Source: a virus. Taken from it: a stretch of 25,227 nt of DNA. Where the stretch lies: IMG/VR virus record IMGVR_UViG_3300007234_002289, positions 1-25,227 of that record; one strand, 5' to 3'. Numbering within the stretch: position 1 is the first letter of the stretch; every line of letters starts with the position of its first letter. A program made the position numbers and the translations under genes. The notes under the pieces were generated by a model. That model saw nothing but the letters and a program-made list of their open reading frames with translations, ran no database searches and had not been told where the DNA came from. Of this stretch, positions 5,901-19,746 are shown one piece after another.

Positions 5901-8392
5901 AAATCCTCAAGCAACTCCGCCCGCTGAGCAGGGGTATAAATCTTGCGTGGGTCATAGGGCAAACCATCTGCATCTTTAATGCGCATTTTACCAGCCATAT
6001 AATACAAAGAACCCTTGTATGGGCCTATTGCTGCGCTACTACCAGTAACAATCTGGCTTGCTTTAATATCTCTTGAGAACTTACTTGCTACTAAATCCAT
6101 AACATCTGTCAATGGTTTAGTTAAATAATAGAAAAATCCTTCATCAACATTGGTACGGATACCCAAGCGTGGAACAAGAGTATAGGCTGCCCAGTTATTG
6201 TTCCAAATTCTTACAAAATGGCTACGTAAAAAGCCATTAAAACCTTTAATAAGATGCTTTCCTGGTGTTCCTTTGGGCAGATTATCAAGTTTAGCCTTAG
6301 CAGATAATTGATAAATAGTATCAAAAGGCAAAGCCTTGATACCTTTGGTCAACTGTGAAGGGTGTATACCACCTGTAGCACTCAACATACCCTCACCATT
6401 GACTACATTGATAGTCGCAGGGTGCATCTGAGGTAGGAACTCATCTGCTACTGGCAGGTTGGCTACAGAAGTAAAGCCTTCATCGTTATAAGTCTTGTTT
6501 AAAATCTGAACAATGTCATCCTCATCCAGATTTAGACGCTTCATATAAGCGTACTGCATATTACGCACTGCAGTTAACTGAACATCTAGTGGTTCATCCA
6601 ACAACATTATGGTAACTGCATTAGCAATATTCTTAGGCAGCACTAGATTTGCAGTATTACGGATATTATCTGCAGTATCAATGGCGTTTTCGCCAAAGTA
6701 AATAGGTCCAGGGGTTCTACCAGCAGCCACACCTAATTTATAGGCTATTTTTCTAGCGCCAGTTATATCTTTTTGTAGTGCAAAAAGGTCATCAATCTCT
6801 GGGTTAAGTAGTTTATTCTCATCATCGGCTACTTTTGTTAGTACAGTCATAGCCTTGACAGCATCTGTATCTGATTTAGCGAGTATTTCTTTAGCAGCAA
6901 GGTCTACTTCTGAAGTAGGATTAAATACCTGATAGGCAACACGGTGCATAGCAGCCGTTAGGTTTCTAGTTTTACGGGCATAAGGAATACCATTGCGCCT
7001 GAAAGAAAGACCATTAACTCGGCCACTAAGCATCATATTTGCATCATCTACATAAGTAAAAAACTTACGTGCTGACTCGGCATCAAATGTTTTATTATCT
7101 ACCAGAATTTTAATGGTCTTATCGTTATACCATTCTGGGAAATCAAACTTCATAGATTCAAGGATTGAAGCCTTCTTGGCTGGAGTATCGGCTTCAGAGT
7201 AAGCCTTTAGTCTTGGCCCAAGGTCTACATCCCAAAGTTTCTTCACCTCTGGAACATCCTTAAATAGCCAGGAGTATCCTTCTTCTAAACCTTTGTTCTC
7301 TGAAACAAACTTTAGTTGCTCAGCAAGTCGTTGTCCCTTTGTTTTAAAGGCTGCTTGCTGGAAAGCCTCACGTACACCAACACGGATACCGCCAACACCT
7401 TTAGCAAGTGACTTTCCTACTGCTGGAAGACCTAATCCTACATAGGTTAGCGGGTCAATAAATATTGTGTAAAAAGCATCTACCGCTCCAGAAACTCTTT
7501 TCTTGTTTTTGGTTTCATACTCTAGAGCAATGGCTTTTGCTTTTTTGCTATTAGGATTCATCCCTGGTGGTAAAACATATTTATCTTCACCAAGTAAAAA
7601 CTTGGCTATTTTTTCTACCCAATAATTTGCTTCTCTGTTATTGCCAGGTGCAATTCTGCCAGCAACTAAATCACGGCCTGGAGATAGTTGAGCATCTACT
7701 TTAAGTGCTTCTTTAATTAGATTAAATTCTTTTGGCTTGTCATACATAGATATAACAGCAGCCATCATATCTTCATCAGCATTACCCCAAAGGTCAATAG
7801 CACCTTCTACGGTGTGACCTTCAGCAATTGCTCTCATAAGAGTTGTAAATGCTGCGCCATAGCGCTCTTCATATGATGAAACCTTGTCCCAGTCCCAGTT
7901 GTTTAGCCCATTATAGGTATCACTCAAGATACCTTTTTTAAAGTCAGTTCTTTTAGTTACGGGCAATCCTGCTGATAATGCTTGCTTTGCTTCTTGAGCA
8001 GAACGAACCTGTGAATAGCCAGTCTTAGTTCCTTTTTCCCAAGCATCTAACGCATCAAGGGCTTTTATAAATGGGGTGCTGAGAAGTTCTATAGCCTCAC
8101 GTGGTCCCTTTGTTATAAAGGATACTGCTTTTCTTAAGTTACTCGGTTCATCAGAAAACATTTTTCTGTCAGGAAACAATGCTTGAATATTCATACGAAC
8201 CGTAGGGTCTAATTTAAGAAACTCATTGCGACCCATTGAGTCGCCCATAGCAATAAGTTCTTTACCCTTTTTATGGTTAAGAGAAAATTGATTTAATATT
8301 TTAGCCCACTTAGGGTCTAAACCAGTTGTTATTGCTGCCTTGTATAAGTTAGGACTTATGTTAGCAACAGACTCATCAACTATTCTTGGCAC
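2978..8392 (-). CDS. Giant virion protein (1804 aa), probable internal/ejection protein
   Basis: A single uninterrupted 1804-codon frame from GTG 8392 (preceded by GAGG) to a TGA at 2978. It is largely helical. The middle has a segment around RIWNNNWAAYTLVPRLGIRT, and the second half has SNFALSIRHVGRFIRATEDF. Both resemble conserved stretches of very large actinophage virion proteins. I see no clear lysozyme, transglycosylase, RNA polymerase or peptidase motif. A Pro/Ala/Gly hydrophobic stretch (DAGVPAFAGPVAGLGILLTK) could touch a membrane. Coming after portal and two small genes, it is best explained as an internal core or DNA-ejection protein; a tape-measure role is less likely because long coiled coils are not obvious. 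Function is inferred from size and position. Confidence 0.8.
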   Translation of the reverse strand: MPRIVDESVANISPNLYKAAITTGLDPKWAKILNQFSLNHKKGKELIAMGDSMGRNEFLKLDPTVRMNIQALFPDRKMFSDEPSNLRKAVSFITKGPREAIELLSTPFIKALDALDAWEKGTKTGYSQVRSAQEAKQALSAGLPVTKRTDFKKGILSDTYNGLNNWDWDKVSSYEERYGAAFTTLMRAIAEGHTVEGAIDLWGNADEDMMAAVISMYDKPKEFNLIKEALKVDAQLSPGRDLVAGRIAPGNNREANYWVEKIAKFLLGEDKYVLPPGMNPNSKKAKAIALEYETKNKKRVSGAVDAFYTIFIDPLTYVGLGLPAVGKSLAKGVGGIRVGVREAFQQAAFKTKGQRLAEQLKFVSENKGLEEGYSWLFKDVPEVKKLWDVDLGPRLKAYSEADTPAKKASILESMKFDFPEWYNDKTIKILVDNKTFDAESARKFFTYVDDANMMLSGRVNGLSFRRNGIPYARKTRNLTAAMHRVAYQVFNPTSEVDLAAKEILAKSDTDAVKAMTVLTKVADDENKLLNPEIDDLFALQKDITGARKIAYKLGVAAGRTPGPIYFGENAIDTADNIRNTANLVLPKNIANAVTIMLLDEPLDVQLTAVRNMQYAYMKRLNLDEDDIVQILNKTYNDEGFTSVANLPVADEFLPQMHPATINVVNGEGMLSATGGIHPSQLTKGIKALPFDTIYQLSAKAKLDNLPKGTPGKHLIKGFNGFLRSHFVRIWNNNWAAYTLVPRLGIRTNVDEGFFYYLTKPLTDVMDLVASKFSRDIKASQIVTGSSAAIGPYKGSLYYMAGKMRIKDADGLPYDPRKIYTPAQRAELLEDLRKGLSAKLGYEIPMSELSPVLVKESILSRIQDIYDVNGPEWENWKRVFRNNPNFTDGLISSMGARDLSVGKMDSEYFSALFTTDQFNLFLKEMGLEKAPGYSPKEVADLTQQEVGIAMWDNFLLRFGYNQIKISDKKYLNPVDVFFANNGIKSNMDFAKARTDIMEQMGATYNDVINMYDTLDEDVLKSALSFFGETVYYRQKGLSDPEIARIYAERMITDMRFTFHGSSNGFNDKLFQLMGSKYNEVVKAASRQKKPLAYAWSRAANNISWKEFNEATLGMRPTSGYVNTRIVSGGKVSDLDGLKEDLSKIELMFEKFPEKALEMMDRQVTGFFRLPAMRVAINKGFDDIKPFEQLLVDRHYKAIIEANPNLDTAVAMARAEEIADKTVTNIVVNNATDTLLEFVDNPNIRSNFALSIRHVGRFIRATEDFHRRVYRLYANEGPRALMRMRLLHYGLENFGSIYEDEQGDEYIVFPTDIVMNTVINKTIQALTGDNTYKVGTFNNFTLKFRLINPSFSPDAGVPAFAGPVAGLGILLTKALLRDLPVIKMLLPQNWEDTIYPWTNEAADYLDTFAMGHIGRNTDLGDVLRIGFPMLASTAWDTVVRDSEKNRMKANYVIQGISYLEAFGNGLPANATKQEKQKYMYHLKIAADNIAAGQAILGMISPGFPGVKDAKGLPNFIRDNGISTWTSAFWDIYQGVLASDTEVANPFETALAMFIGKNPGKSVYTIPRTDKASKVFINKTNELKQWATDNKRFVDTYADSGIGYIFAPKVGEYNPDIYNWMQSVDLVNQPDLFKYLEKVQISVDKERYFAVDKELNKKLSETADYSERKKFIALAEREKQLLFISNPLLEDAINEAGENKGELKIMFSDLEDAVNNPKSPIADNTKSAMRLAIQQVKNFELFSNNMVNKNSYTFTSDRAKMKDDVIAMLRELAFDPAVKEATRLIFVPLLNKYSRDAISASPERGYP

Positions 8393-14733: not shown

Positions 14734-15140
14734 GTGAGAATACTGGCATCAGTATCCAAACTATGTGCTATCAATGCCAAGCACTCACTGAACTCTGCCC
14801 TGATTGTCAGGAGCAGAAGGACGCCAATGACATCTACTTGGCCCACAAAATAGTAGATGAGTCCCAAGACTTCTACTACAAAGGCTATGGTGCCAAGAAG
14901 GTAGCCGTAGCCAACGGTGGCTCTGTCTCTGAGTTCAATCCTATGTCAGTTATCCGTGACCTTCCTTCAGGTCACGACTGGACTGACCGTGAAGATGAGT
15001 TCTTAGAGCCAATCGCTATGCTAGTAGACAGGTTATTTGACCTTGAGACCAGCCTGACTACAACATCATCTGAGGTGGTATGCCAATCCTGCCATCTCAT
15101 TTACAACAAGCACCAAGCAGAGTGCCCAATCTGCTACTAA
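14730..15140 (+). CDS. Double zinc-ribbon protein (136 aa)
   Basis: I chose the ATG at 14730, which overlaps the preceding stop (ATGA) and has GGGG upstream, over an earlier in-frame ATG at 14688 that would overlap the preceding gene. An N-terminal knuckle pair, CYQCQALTELCPDC, and a C-terminal pair, CQSCHLIYNKHQAECPIC, flank a charged, helical centre. Two CxxC...CxxC sites at the ends suggest either two zinc sites or one rubredoxin-like site closed by both termini. Possible roles are nucleic-acid or protein binding. No family is recognised. Confidence 0.75.
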   Translation: MSENTGISIQTMCYQCQALTELCPDCQEQKDANDIYLAHKIVDESQDFYYKGYGAKKVAVANGGSVSEFNPMSVIRDLPSGHDWTDREDEFLEPIAMLVDRLFDLETSLTTTSSEVVCQSCHLIYNKHQAECPICY

Positions 15141-15150
15141 TCACAACCAC

Positions 15151-15182
15151 GGGGAACCCCTCACAAGTGAGGGGATTTCCCC
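15151..15182 (+). terminator. Long GC-rich hairpin upstream of the SSB-like gene
   Basis: GGGGAA (15151-15156) plus CCCCTCAC (15157-15164) pair with GTGAGGGG (15167-15174) plus TTCCCC (15177-15182), with a two-base AT bulge on the right side. No T-run follows (GACAAAAAG), so it is not a classic intrinsic terminator. It may instead protect or process the downstream messenger, or attenuate. Confidence 0.45.
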
Positions 15183-15222
15183 GACAAAAAGTAAACAACT
15201 AACTAATAAGGAGACTAACCAA

Positions 15223-15543
15223 ATGAATACAGTAAACGAGTTCAAGTTCAACAATGCGTTGTTGAAATCAGTCCGTGACTATGGCAACGTAGTCAAAGGT
15301 ATCGTTCAGTCCCGCCAGACTGAATACACCCCAGACGGGCAAATGAGAGCCCGCTTCATCGCTAGCCGTCAGGTCACAATTACTGACCCAACAATCCTAG
15401 CAACACTCCGTCCTCTACTAACCGAGAACGCTGAGTTCTTTGTCAACCTATCAGGTTATATGACAACCACAGTCCGTGAGGAAAAAGGACAGACCAAGTG
15501 GTATGACAACCAAATTGTCACCAACCTTGAGTTCATCAACTAA
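15223..15543 (+). CDS. Probable OB-fold single-strand DNA-binding (SSB-like) protein
   Basis: 106 aa, starting at ATG 15223 with a strong AAGGAGAC site. The layout fits a minimal OB fold: NVVKGIVQSRQTEY (strand 1 and turn), RARFIASRQVTI, then ENAEFFVNLSGYM and a C-terminal beta hairpin ending IVTNLEFIN. The latter resembles the 'v.v.G.l......g......V..lef' end of bacterial SSB. It lacks the long acidic C-terminal tail of host SSB that recruits partners. An SSB is expected in this DNA-metabolism arm. It is the only gene bracketed on both sides by strong hairpins, suggesting a separately controlled, abundant product. The fold is inferred from pattern only. Confidence 0.5.
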   Translation: MNTVNEFKFNNALLKSVRDYGNVVKGIVQSRQTEYTPDGQMRARFIASRQVTITDPTILATLRPLLTENAEFFVNLSGYMTTTVREEKGQTKWYDNQIVTNLEFIN

Positions 15544-16154: not shown

Positions 16155-16270
16155 TGAATATTATATGCCATAAATGTCACGTTCCAACAGATGAGACGGA
16201 GATTATCTGGACCGATGACAAGGGTGACCAATGTGTAGAATGCTACGAGAAGGAGACAATAGATGCGTGA
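16154..16270 (+). CDS. 38-aa zinc-ribbon microprotein
   Basis: GTG start with AGGAGAT seven bases upstream. It shows CHKC (residues 5-8) and CVEC (27-30) around an acidic, Trp-containing hairpin. This is close to the minimum size for a four-cysteine zinc knuckle. It overlaps the next ATG by 8 bases. Function unknown; the ribosome site and coding overlaps support it being real. Confidence 0.62.
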   Translation: MNIICHKCHVPTDETEIIWTDDKGDQCVECYEKETIDA

Positions 16271-17069: not shown

Positions 17070-17094
17070 ACAACAAACAAAAAGGAGACAGCAA

Positions 17095-17298
17095 GTGATA
17101 ATCAAACATATAGTAGAACTAGAGACAGTCATTAATGACAACTCTACAGACCCATCAGTGCTAGCAATCCTCGCTATGTCAGAGGAAGACCGTACTAAAT
17201 TCTTTAAAGAACTAGGCACAGGTTTTGTTCAGCATTGTTTTGACACCATTAAAGTTAACGAAGGTATGTCCTTCGCAGAATTGCGGGTAGCCAAGTGA
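17095..17298 (+). CDS. 67-aa protein, function unknown
   Basis: GTG at 17095 has a strong AAAAAGGAGAC site and was chosen over upstream in-frame starts that overlap the lysin gene. The product is helical and mildly acidic (MSEEDRTKFFKELGTGF) with no cysteines or membrane span. The stop overlaps the next gene's GTG (GTGA), so it is coupled to the DUF932 gene. No family recognised. Confidence 0.68.
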   Translation: MIIKHIVELETVINDNSTDPSVLAILAMSEEDRTKFFKELGTGFVQHCFDTIKVNEGMSFAELRVAK

Positions 17299-18290
17299 GC
17301 ATCACTCTAGCCCCAGCAACTCCATATAAGAACAGAGCCAACTGGCTCAAGTCAGGCACAGGTGTAACAGCCACATCAGCATCAGATGTAGCCAGACAAG
17401 CAGGTCTTGACTGGTCAGTGTCATTGCACCCAATGACAGCCCACTATCTAATTCCAGGTGGCGGTCAGCCACTAGCAATACCAGTACGCAACAAGCAGGC
17501 AGTCATTAAGACTACGCCGTTTGGCAAAGTAGATAACATTGGTGTTGTAGGTAATAGATACCAAGTCTTTCAGAACGGTGAGATATTCTCTGCTCTGGAT
17601 ACTTTAATTGATTCAGGTGAAGCACGTTATGCAGCCGCTGGTGAGTATGATGGCGGCGCAAAGGTGTGGATGTTGCTGGAATTACCAACGGAAATTACAG
17701 TAGCCAATGACCCACACGCAGCCTTTATCCTGGCTAAGACCAGCCACGATGGCAGCAGTTCAGTCATCATCAAGCCAATCATTGAGCGGCTATGGTGCCA
17801 CAATCAAATCAATAAGATATTCCGTAGGAATAATCAGTTCACCTATACCCTCAAGCACACCAGCAACAGCAAGTTGCAAGTGTCAGAGATTAGCCATATC
17901 TTAAAGTTGTCTTATCAAAACATTGAGGCATACACAGATATTGCTAACCATCTACTACAGCAAGAGGTAGACCGTGAACACGCAGTCAACTACTTCAAGA
18001 AGGTATTCCCTCTACCTGCCACCATTGAAGATAAGCCACTCAGCCTGCTATCACAGGGTGAGAAAGCGCAATTGACGAGGGCTAACACCGCACGTCATAC
18101 TGCGATGCATATCTACTCAGCCAGCCAGACACAGGAGAATATCCGTGGCACACAGTTCGGTCTATGGCAGGCAGTAGTTGAGTATGCTGACCACGGCAAG
18201 GCTGATAAGGGCACACTCTCAGGTGTGCGTGCTATGTCAGGTGGCTCAGACAATCTTAAGTTACGTGCATTAGAACTACTAACAAACTAA
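17295..18290 (+). CDS. DUF932 / TIGR03299 phage-plasmid protein
   Basis: 331 aa, GTG start overlapping the preceding stop. Recognisable pattern: VGNRYQVFQNGEIFSALDTL near the N-terminal third, then LELPTEITVANDP, the 'H-x-G/S-S-S' stretch TSHDGSSSVIIKPI with RLWCHNQ, and a C-terminal GLWQAVVEYADH. This is the DUF932 family (TIGR03299), widespread on phages and plasmids and usually near recombination or replication genes. Its molecular activity is not established. Here it precedes the nuclease and primase block, which suits a role in DNA metabolism. Confidence 0.85.
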   Translation: MSITLAPATPYKNRANWLKSGTGVTATSASDVARQAGLDWSVSLHPMTAHYLIPGGGQPLAIPVRNKQAVIKTTPFGKVDNIGVVGNRYQVFQNGEIFSALDTLIDSGEARYAAAGEYDGGAKVWMLLELPTEITVANDPHAAFILAKTSHDGSSSVIIKPIIERLWCHNQINKIFRRNNQFTYTLKHTSNSKLQVSEISHILKLSYQNIEAYTDIANHLLQQEVDREHAVNYFKKVFPLPATIEDKPLSLLSQGEKAQLTRANTARHTAMHIYSASQTQENIRGTQFGLWQAVVEYADHGKADKGTLSGVRAMSGGSDNLKLRALELLTN

Positions 18291-18298
18291 GGAGACTA

Positions 18299-18454
18299 AT
18301 GCCTAAGACTAAACAAAAAGAAGTATGTATGGTGTGCAAGTCACACGATGCACTATTCATCACCCTTAAAAACGGGGAGAAACTACCTTGTTTCACTTAC
18401 CTAATTGGGCAGGGTATTATTTGTCCAGATTGCAAACAAGTAAAAGGAGACTAA
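18299..18454 (+). CDS. 51-aa zinc-ribbon microprotein
   Basis: ATG at 18299 follows AAGGAGAC (close spacing). It has CMVC (residues 10-13) and CPDC (42-45), a four-cysteine ribbon around a beta-rich centre. The last codons (KGD-stop) contain the next gene's AAAAGGAGAC site. Function unknown; a nucleic-acid or protein-binding knuckle is likely. Confidence 0.68.
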   Translation: MPKTKQKEVCMVCKSHDALFITLKNGEKLPCFTYLIGQGIICPDCKQVKGD

Positions 18455-18456
18455 CA

Positions 18457-18873
18457 ATGGAATACCTACACACAAACGAAGACGGTACTACTACCAAGTA
18501 TACCGATGATATGATTAAATCTGCTATAACAGATAGAGATTACTACAAAAAGAACTACTACACATATGCTAGTAAAACCAGCCAACTCCGTGATGAAGTC
18601 TATAACTTCTTTAAAGACCGCTATGACTCAGGTGATAGTGAGATTACAGTAACAGTAGATGATGTCAATGACTTGCTAGATAGTATTGGTTCATCCAAAC
18701 TAAAGGCTTTGTTTACAGTCACTGGTACTATTCACTTTACTATCACAGATATTGAGGCAGAAACAGAAGAAGATGCCAACGATATTGTTAACAATGAGTT
18801 GACAGTAGAGTTCAATGGCGAAGGTCAAGTAGATGACTGGAGCCTAGACATTAGCGACACAACCCAACAATAA
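18457..18873 (+). CDS. Acidic 138-aa protein, function unknown
   Basis: I chose ATG 18457 (AAAAGGAGAC, 6-base spacer) rather than in-frame starts upstream. The N-terminal part is Tyr/Asp/Lys-rich (DRDYYKKNYYTYASKT), then helical. The C-terminal ~60 residues form a beta-rich segment (LFTVTGTIHFTITDIEAET) with an EEDANDIV helix and acidic end. The strand-helix pattern 'v.v...v....edA......' occurs in small phage proteins. Strongly acidic overall, so a DNA-mimic or partner-binding role is conceivable but unproven. Confidence 0.7.
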   Translation: MEYLHTNEDGTTTKYTDDMIKSAITDRDYYKKNYYTYASKTSQLRDEVYNFFKDRYDSGDSEITVTVDDVNDLLDSIGSSKLKALFTVTGTIHFTITDIEAETEEDANDIVNNELTVEFNGEGQVDDWSLDISDTTQQ

Positions 18874-18880
18874 ACTTGAG

Positions 18881-18903
18881 TAGTACCAACCGTTCTGGTA
18901 CTA
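18881..18903 (+). terminator. Small hairpin after the acidic gene
   Basis: TAGTACCA (18881-18888) pairs with TGGTACTA (18896-18903) around a 7-base loop, just after the stop at 18873. No T-run follows. It is a weak terminator candidate, or the first of two leader hairpins before the RecB-like gene. Confidence 0.35.
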
Positions 18904-18914
18904 TTCATCACAAG

Positions 18915-18970
18915 AGAGTGGGCTAGTTTTGATTCGTCTCCTTTCTGGCCCACTCTACTTACAAGGAGAC
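18915..18970 (+). promoter_or_regulatory. Hairpin with anti-Shine-Dalgarno loop upstream of the nuclease
   Basis: AGAGTGGGCTAG (18915-18926) pairs with CTGGCCCACTCT (18945-18956) in 12 pairs (one G-U). The loop contains GTCTCCTT (18936-18943), the exact complement of this gene's own Shine-Dalgarno AAGGAGAC (18963-18970). Loop to stem, CTCCTTTCT also equals the last nine bases of the usual 16S rRNA 3' tail. It could form a pseudoknot that blocks ribosome entry, or compete with 16S. Only 6 bases cross the 12-bp stem, so a full pseudoknot is tight. Confidence 0.6.
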
Positions 18971-18978
18971 AAAGAGTT

Positions 18979-19746
18979 ATGGCAGCAGTAGAAATAGAAC
19001 GTGATAGATATGGCAGACCACTAATAGTTCCACCTAAAGGTGGCAAGCCAGTTGCTTATACCCGTGCTACCACAATAGCCAACAGTCTTGACGACCCGTC
19101 AGCGCTTACTGCCTGGAAAATGCGGATGGCTGCGATTGGATTATCAGTTCGCAGTGACCTGCTCCTTGCTATTAACGCAGCACAGGATGACAAGATGGCT
19201 ATCAATAAATACATTGAAGATGCTATGGAAGTAGCAGGTGCTAGCAAGGCAGCAACTATTGGCACAGCCATACATACATTCGCAGAGAAAATGGATTTGG
19301 GTATACCAGTGAGTATCCCAAACGAGTGGGCAGGGGACTTAATTGCCTACGAGCAAACAACAAAAAAACTAAATAAAGTTTTCATAGAACAGTTCTGTGT
19401 CTTAGATAAGTTTAAGATTGCTGGTACACCAGACAGAGTTGTTGAGTATGAAGGCGAAAGATTCATTGCAGATATAAAGACAGGTCGTATTGACCACCCA
19501 AATAATATTGCTATGCAGTTGGCTATCTATGCCAACGGCTTGCCGTATTATCCTGACACGGCAACCCGTGGTAAATGGGGAGACGTGAACAAAGATAAAG
19601 CCATCATCATCCACCTACCTGCAGGTAGTGGTCTATGCAAACTAGTATGGATTGATATTGCAGAAGGCTGGAAGGGTGTACAATTTGCAATGAAAGTCAG
19701 ACAGTGGCGAGACAAGAAAGGTCTTGCTACTCCGTTCCCAGAGTAA
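18979..19746 (+). CDS. PD-(D/E)XK RecB/Cas4-like nuclease
   Basis: 255 aa. The RecB-family nuclease signature is complete: GTAIHTFAEKM (His99), AGTPDRVV (Asp152), FIADIKTG (Asp165, Lys167) and the QLAIYANG motif (Gln180). Such proteins are metal-dependent exonucleases. In phages they often produce single-stranded ends for recombination. No iron-sulfur cysteine cluster of the AddB/Cas4 type is seen. It is followed by a zinc-ribbon protein and a RecA/DnaB-type ATPase. The leader hairpin at 18915-18970 probably controls its translation. Confidence 0.88.
   Translation: MAAVEIERDRYGRPLIVPPKGGKPVAYTRATTIANSLDDPSALTAWKMRMAAIGLSVRSDLLLAINAAQDDKMAINKYIEDAMEVAGASKAATIGTAIHTFAEKMDLGIPVSIPNEWAGDLIAYEQTTKKLNKVFIEQFCVLDKFKIAGTPDRVVEYEGERFIADIKTGRIDHPNNIAMQLAIYANGLPYYPDTATRGKWGDVNKDKAIIIHLPAGSGLCKLVWIDIAEGWKGVQFAMKVRQWRDKKGLATPFPE

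Follow-up and report, generated by a model that had tools for sequence, protein, structure and literature searches.

The window analysed here, a 25,227-nucleotide stretch of viral DNA, contains a long-looped hairpin directly before an exonuclease gene. The loop is complementary to the Shine-Dalgarno (SD) sequence of that gene and also to the ribosome-binding sites (RBSs) of several genes further upstream. Does it act on the nuclease gene that follows it, on the ribosome, or on the RBSs of other phage genes?

The leader hairpin and its surroundings

The initial annotation had described a 12-bp stem closed by an 18-base loop, and this structure was found as described (hairpin 2 in Table 1). The stem is made of AGAGTGGGCTAG (18915-18926) and CTGGCCCACTCT (18945-18956), includes one G-U pair and could be extended by three more outer pairs. 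The local fold of this region is only moderately better than that of dinucleotide shuffles (z -2.43, with 2 of 200 shuffles equally good), and hairpin 2 is accepted as real because it is conserved in relatives. A search of IMG/VR with the nuclease gave 225 relatives, the best 80 of which were kept; with these and with additional DNA-pattern scans, the loop hairpin was found immediately 5' of the nuclease gene in 177 phage loci, representing 42 distinct leaders. Alignment of the leaders, which the initial annotation had suggested as a check and on which RNAalifold was also run, revealed both-sided changes in 10 of the 12 stem pairs and an almost fixed loop (consensus TGATTAGTCTCCTTT). In fact, 69 both-sided cells were counted over stem and loop-SD pairs, every one of them in the stem, as compared to 24.1 ± 5.6 in shuffled alignments, and none of 500 shuffles reached 69. 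The covariation score was 0.323 vs. 0.204 ± 0.010 after shuffling, and again none of 500 shuffles scored as high. The loop of the window itself deviates from the conserved consensus, TTCG replacing TTAG.

Exact loop matches were also present in unrelated contigs, where they were mostly lone RBS-like sequences without a stem and were discarded; their covariance model scores were about 14-19 bits, as compared to 60-89 for true members. The Rfam covariance models gave no gathering hit in the window and only chance hits at hairpin 2. The hairpin does not combine a G+C-rich stem with a following run of U, as an intrinsic terminator would; ACTTACAAGGAG comes after the stem. In L310, a short ORF seems to be inserted between a leader-like hairpin with its SD and the nuclease gene, so that the leader would stand before another gene.

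The phages belong to a large lake-water family. On the basis of the large terminase, their closest cultured phages are the Planktophila phages LanE43AprE7/F5 (PMC10202952), with about 62-63% identity, whose genomes contain neither the nuclease nor the leader. The leader is also absent from the cultured-phage nuclease relatives that were examined (McProf, Amela and Dulem virus 32), in which the genes before the nuclease are packed or overlapping and leave no room for it. A scan of genome contigs for the nuclease revealed no relative.

The account of the leader given in the initial annotation must be corrected, since a second hairpin (hairpin 1) lies just upstream and overlaps a promoter-like sequence (Table 1). 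The leaders are here assigned to groups, the window belonging to g1. The motif TGnTAnnnT is present upstream of hairpin 2 in 35/35 leaders of g1, 21/21 of g2, 42/43 of g3a, 10/10 of g3b and 5/6 of g5, that is, in 113 of 115, with about 8% expected from mononucleotide shuffles. This extended -10 sits inside or beside an inverted repeat, directly 5' of hairpin 2. With a promoter-like element in this position, transcription would begin at hairpin 2, which would thus be a 5' leader. Hairpin 1 may be operator-like, or may form an RNA hairpin within read-through transcripts.

The inverted repeat overlapping the extended -10 would suit a DNA-level element (an operator, an origin or a nicking site), or one might think of a protein-binding RNA hairpin, the complementarity of the loop being incidental in either case. 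However, G-U pairs are retained in hairpin 2 (at least 25 GU/UG cells in the alignment), and a site of this kind would not predict that many RBSs are complementary to the loop; we consider it extremely improbable.

Some minor features of the region were also noted. CCGTC is often central in hairpin 1 and its equivalents in relatives. In L071, L036 and L077, a small Cys/His-rich gene (MPKIADHTYVEALPSGKC...CxCH), which only a part of g1 possesses, is located just upstream of the leader and ends at hairpin 1. A short upstream ORF ending in the loop (at the stops TGA/TAG of TGATTAG) was considered and rejected, because its apparent GTG start is within the coding end of the Cys/His-rich gene and the ORF is lost from several leaders. 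An RBS role for the complement of the loop on the antisense strand was rejected as well, no suitably spaced start codon being found in the leaders inspected by eye.

Table 1. Positions of the leader elements, the nuclease gene and the predicted target RBSs. Positions refer to the window, except where a locus is named.
Feature	Position	Strand	Remarks
Promoter-like sequence	18876..18904	+	TTGAGT (18876-18881), 17-nt spacer, extended -10 TGG-TACTAT (18896-18904)
Hairpin 1	18877..18907	+	12-bp inverted repeat, 7-nt loop, overlaps the -10; palindrome kept, sequence changed in relatives
Hairpin 2 (putative anti-RBS hairpin)	18915..18956	+	12-bp stem, 18-nt loop; stem covariation; present in 177 loci
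Loop of hairpin 2, TTTTGATTCGTCTCCTTT	18927..18944	+	near-invariant in relatives while the stem changes
Nuclease SD, AAGGAGAC	18963..18970	+	8-bp cis complement of the loop; next base A, where the loop consensus of g1 needs T
Cas4-like PD-(D/E)XK exonuclease gene	18979..19746	+	255 aa; gene after the leader; ATG at 18979
Predicted trans target RBS, AAAGGAGACTAAC	18444..18451	+	acidic-protein gene starting at 18459 (family 25)
Predicted trans target RBS, AAGGAGACTA	18289..18296	+	51-aa ORF at 18299
Predicted trans target RBS, AAAGGAGACAG	17082..17089	+	67-aa ORF starting with GTG at 17095
Possible trans target, AAGGAGAC	16250..16257	+	before a short ORF (ATG at 16263)
Predicted trans target RBS, AAGGAGACTAAC	15208..15215	+	106-aa gene at 15223 (family 30); AAAGGAGATAAT in g2 relatives
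RBS sequences predicted to match the g1, g2 and g3a loops			AAGGAGACTAA, AAGGAGATAGC, AAGGAGAGAA
Hairpin with loop CUACCUGC	L106:16789-16850; L091:17137-17200(-); L340 near 15000

Loop types and the ribosome-binding sites of upstream genes

More distant relatives of the nuclease keep a leader hairpin with an altered loop, which is GGCUAUCUCCUUU in g2, GGCUCUCUCCUUG in g3a and GGUUCUCUCCUUG in g3b; further altered loops are GACCUCUUUC in g4 and GCUGUCUCCUUUUU in g5. The leader of g6 contains a different hairpin, GGTCCCGCCATCTGCGAACACGGGAC, without an anti-SD loop. This sequence is highly conserved directly before the nuclease gene in g6 loci, such as L365, L435 and L400. G004 and G020 contain, 2.5-2.7 kb upstream, a hairpin resembling it, in which the loop is CTACCTGCGAACA and the stem has changed.

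In the window, the loop segment GTCTCCTTT (18936-18944), which is the complement of AAAGGAGAC, is complementary to the RBSs of upstream genes. Across g1, the RBSs of other same-strand genes contained GGAGAC in 95 of 240 cases, as compared to 5 of 139 on the minus strand, and their consensus AAGGAGACTAA complements the loop segment UUAGUCUCCUU. Each loop type has a corresponding partner: GUCUCC is matched by GGAGAC(U), AUCUCC by GGAGAU, a second GUCUCC by GGAGACA and, more weakly, CUCUCC by GGAGAG.

This correspondence was measured on genes called by simple, heuristic ORF/RBS rules, taking as upstream those within 7.5 kb of the leader and comparing the dinucleotide after GGAG with the complement of the loop. 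In g1 (AC, giving GGAGAC) the predicted form was present in 67/123 upstream, 7/69 downstream and 5/133 minus-strand RBSs, and in g2 (AT, giving GGAGAT) in 46/68, 12/41 and 4/29, respectively. For g5 (AC, giving GGAGAC) the values were 12/34, 0/11 and 1/11, the upstream cases being always followed by A, as the loop predicts. The signal of g3a (AG, giving GGAGAG) was moderate, with 51/191 upstream, 14/153 downstream and 2/83 minus-strand matches, and a comparison of its own loop with swapped loops did not reach significance (p 0.12). One subgroup goes against the rule, at the first discriminating base: the loop of g3b predicts GGAGAG, yet its upstream RBSs are GGAGAA in 24/51 cases and GGAGAG in 4/51. 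The upstream RBSs of g6, which has no anti-SD loop, showed no comparable preference. Altogether, roughly half of the upstream RBSs mismatch their loop.

When each gene family was given one vote, 42 of 125 upstream RBSs matched their own loop, with respect to 18.0 under label shuffling (maximum 31, p<=2e-5), while downstream families did so in 10 of 87 cases vs. 7.6 when shuffled (p=0.19). In the first genome set, 32 of 45 matched their own loop, the maximum in 100,000 permutations being 26. The third base, which follows GGAGAC, changes as well: it is T in 14 and A in 5 families of g1 (loop A), and A in 6 and T in none of g5 (loop U). Moreover, homologous genes change their RBS together with the loop. 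For family 25, the gene next upstream of the leader, the RBS is AGGAGACTAA in g1 but AGGAGATAGC/AGGAGATAGA in g2, and families 30, 82, 83 and 122 switch likewise. Action in trans on other early genes, a secondary suggestion of the initial annotation, thus receives strong support from the co-variation of loop and RBSs and from the no-loop control provided by g6.

Part of this resemblance might be due to shared ancestry or composition, the same-strand RBSs being alike by descent and the loop being an inverted RBS copy with no regulatory role. Homologous genes do not contribute independent RBSs, and the loop types are few (about five), so that there were few loop-change events, though many genes changed with each. 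This explanation is nevertheless very unlikely, considering that about 17 unrelated families carry GGAGAC in g1 and 11 carry GGAGAU in g2, that homologous genes switch together, and that the loop is fixed while the stem turns over. Furthermore, the downstream and minus-strand genes of the same genomes mostly lack the signature, and g6 is without both loop and signature.

The initial annotation had also interpreted the loop as a mimic of the 16S rRNA 3' tail, that is, a ribosome decoy that would bind free SDs or compete with the anti-SD of the ribosome. The sequence CUCCUUU is common to the loop and to the usual bacterial 16S 3' end, the SDs of the phage are of the AAGGAG type and, in the window, the longer match CTCCTTTCT does span from the loop into the stem. 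However, its TTCT part (UUCU in the stem) varies among relatives, and the base next to UCC departs from 16S, differently in each group (GUC, AUC or CUC before UCC) and in step with the phage RBSs, leaving only CUCCUU in common. Since the loop varies at positions at which the 16S tail is not free to change, this role is unsupported and scarcely credible.

Possible pairing of the loop with the nuclease SD

The loop and the nuclease SD are exactly complementary, as reported in the initial annotation. The loop sequence GTCTCCTT (18936-18943) can form 8 bp with AAGGAGAC, which lies 19 nt downstream of it, and a 6-nt linker follows the stem. The recurrence of this SD before other genes was also borne out, AAGGAGAC being found at 15208, 16250, 17082, 18289 and 18444 as well. 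The main claim derived from these features was a self-sequestering pseudoknot. It is considered here as an H-type pseudoknot between loop and nuclease SD that would reduce the translation of the exonuclease. Such cis autoregulation, which might coexist with action in trans, is feasible as far as pairing is concerned: the complement is exact in the window, the loop-SD pairing is kept in 97.4% of the alignment cells, and an anti-SD-like loop precedes the nuclease in g1-g5. Nonetheless, we consider it unlikely. None of the 8 loop-SD pairs shows a both-sided change in the leader alignment, and for this reason the retained pairing may merely reflect two fixed sequences. In addition, the nuclease SD avoids the base that discriminates the loops, matching it in only 3 of 105 cases (T in 3/35 for g1 and 0/21 for g2, A in 0/6 for g5, G in 0/43 for g3a). 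This mismatch is not predicted by a cis switch, whereas it is predicted by a trans regulator that spares its own gene. Finally, the part of the loop that lies 5' of GUCUCC, with the g1 consensus UUA, fits the upstream RBSs and not the nuclease SD, and the 12-bp stem would have to be spanned by the 6-nt linker.

The extent of contiguous complementarity differs in the same direction, since in many genomes the longest matches to trans targets extend over 10-12 nt, as compared to 7-8 for the nuclease SD in cis. In the window, where the loop has TTCG and not TTAG, the trans matches stop at 9 nt vs. 8 for the cis SD.

Leader hairpins and pseudoknots that sequester an SD are known from ribosomal-protein leaders and from the expression platforms of riboswitches. 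Hairpin 2 is similar to them in being placed directly before an SD and in carrying an anti-SD sequence, but differs in that its loop is specific to the RBSs of other genes, its own SD being mismatched beyond the core.

Predicted action in trans and further leader hairpins

Taken as a comparison of sequences, these results suggest that the leader of the later nuclease/replication transcript probably pairs by its loop with the RBSs of same-strand upstream genes and represses this early set ("early" and "late" being defined by strand and gene position only). Hairpin 2 would be a 5'-leader element of this transcript, which may start just upstream of the hairpin. The exposed, pyrimidine-rich loop would pair with the upstream RBSs and block ribosome binding, and hence translation, and the early gene set would be turned down once the leader transcript is made. 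This action would be mainly intermolecular, although the sequences do not distinguish it from pairing within one polycistronic mRNA, between the leader and RBSs far away from it. If the leader is made 1:1 with a polycistronic mRNA, the repression of many RBSs would require an excess of leader; no separate terminator for a short RNA was found.

As in trans-acting anti-RBS RNAs, here an unpaired segment complements the RBSs of other genes, and RNA and targets have co-evolved, with the exception of g3b. In the 6C/B11 sRNA of mycobacteria and other Actinobacteria, C-rich hairpin loops are reported to bind several mRNAs at their RBSs and to repress these mRNAs (PMC10470900). The likeness lies in the loop-RBS matches across several genes, and the host of the nearest cultured phages is likewise an actinobacterium. 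However, 6C/B11 is a cellular sRNA with C-tract loops, whereas here a phage mRNA leader carries a group-specific loop that tracks phage RBSs. In fact, the loop is UGAUUAGUCUCCUUU or a group variant of it and not a cytosine run, and the 6C/B11 covariance models of Rfam matched neither the window nor hairpin 2. In Firmicutes, the anti-SD sRNAs RNAIII, LhrC and RsaE are reported to block the SDs of their targets by CU-rich (UCCC) motifs (PMC4132741); these are stand-alone sRNAs with generic anti-SD motifs, in contrast to an mRNA-leader loop whose specificity differs among related phages together with the RBSs. Among phage antisense RNAs (P22 sar, P1/P7 c4 and lambda OOP), sar and c4 pair with phage mRNA and control translation (PMC12197685). 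RNAs of this type, such as P22 sar, repress single phage mRNAs and act on one gene or operon, whereas here one loop fits several to a dozen upstream genes and forms part of a later gene's leader. The literature searched gave no earlier case of such a multi-target RNA in a phage.

Some of these phages contain a further leader hairpin, with loop CUACCUGC, about 3.9 kb upstream of the nuclease leader (Table 1). In all of the 8 loci with enough upstream sequence, this loop is a 7-8-nt complement of the unusual RBS GCAGGUAG(AAAAUG) of one small gene located 1.4-2.5 kb upstream (RBS form GCAGGUA(G/C)-AAAAUG). The product of the small gene (MSKHTVSFADAELAGLAIKTAKNG..., about 101-117 aa) has no Pfam match, and its distant homologues, in phages without the loop-CUACCUGC hairpin, have other RBSs. 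In L438 and L439, a hairpin that shortly precedes the nuclease leader (7881-7950 in both) has a loop that complements, over 15 nt and perfectly, an RBS of the small-gene family about 5.6 kb upstream of it; no target was found for the nuclease-proximal loop of these two loci. In g4, the nuclease-leader loop GACCUCUUUC can pair with GAAAGAGG, the RBS of the small target gene in L359. These cases, which were found after the main hypothesis had been formed and in few phages, appear to agree with the anti-RBS hypothesis and point the same way.

It is possible, if short of probable, that antisense leader hairpins make up a code in these phages. The leader loops of later transcripts would be adapted to the RBSs of a gene class expressed earlier, loop and RBS set would be re-tuned jointly, and base-pairing of mRNA leaders would take the place of a repressor protein in early shut-off; the nuclease leader, with many targets, and the CUACCUGC leader, with one, would be two channels of this code. 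If the proposed action is true, widespread freshwater phages, distantly related to the Planktophila phages, time their genes by an RNA loop that co-evolves with a whole RBS class, and coordinated RNA-RNA co-evolution of many genes is rarely so plainly visible. A sequence rule would then predict the genes of the repressed class, natural orthogonal anti-RBS loops would be available with their matching RBSs, and the differing spacer bases after GGAG among related phages would be accounted for.

The idea that hairpin-1 loops are general anti-start-codon elements was discarded, their overall excess being small (6.4 vs. 5.7 for reversed loops); among them, only those of L438/L439, with 15 nt, and of G015, with 11 nt, are conspicuous. 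At 15140-15185, the window has yet another leader hairpin, GGGGAACCCCTCACAAGTGAGGGGATTTCCCC, which is strong and precedes the 106-aa gene at 15223.
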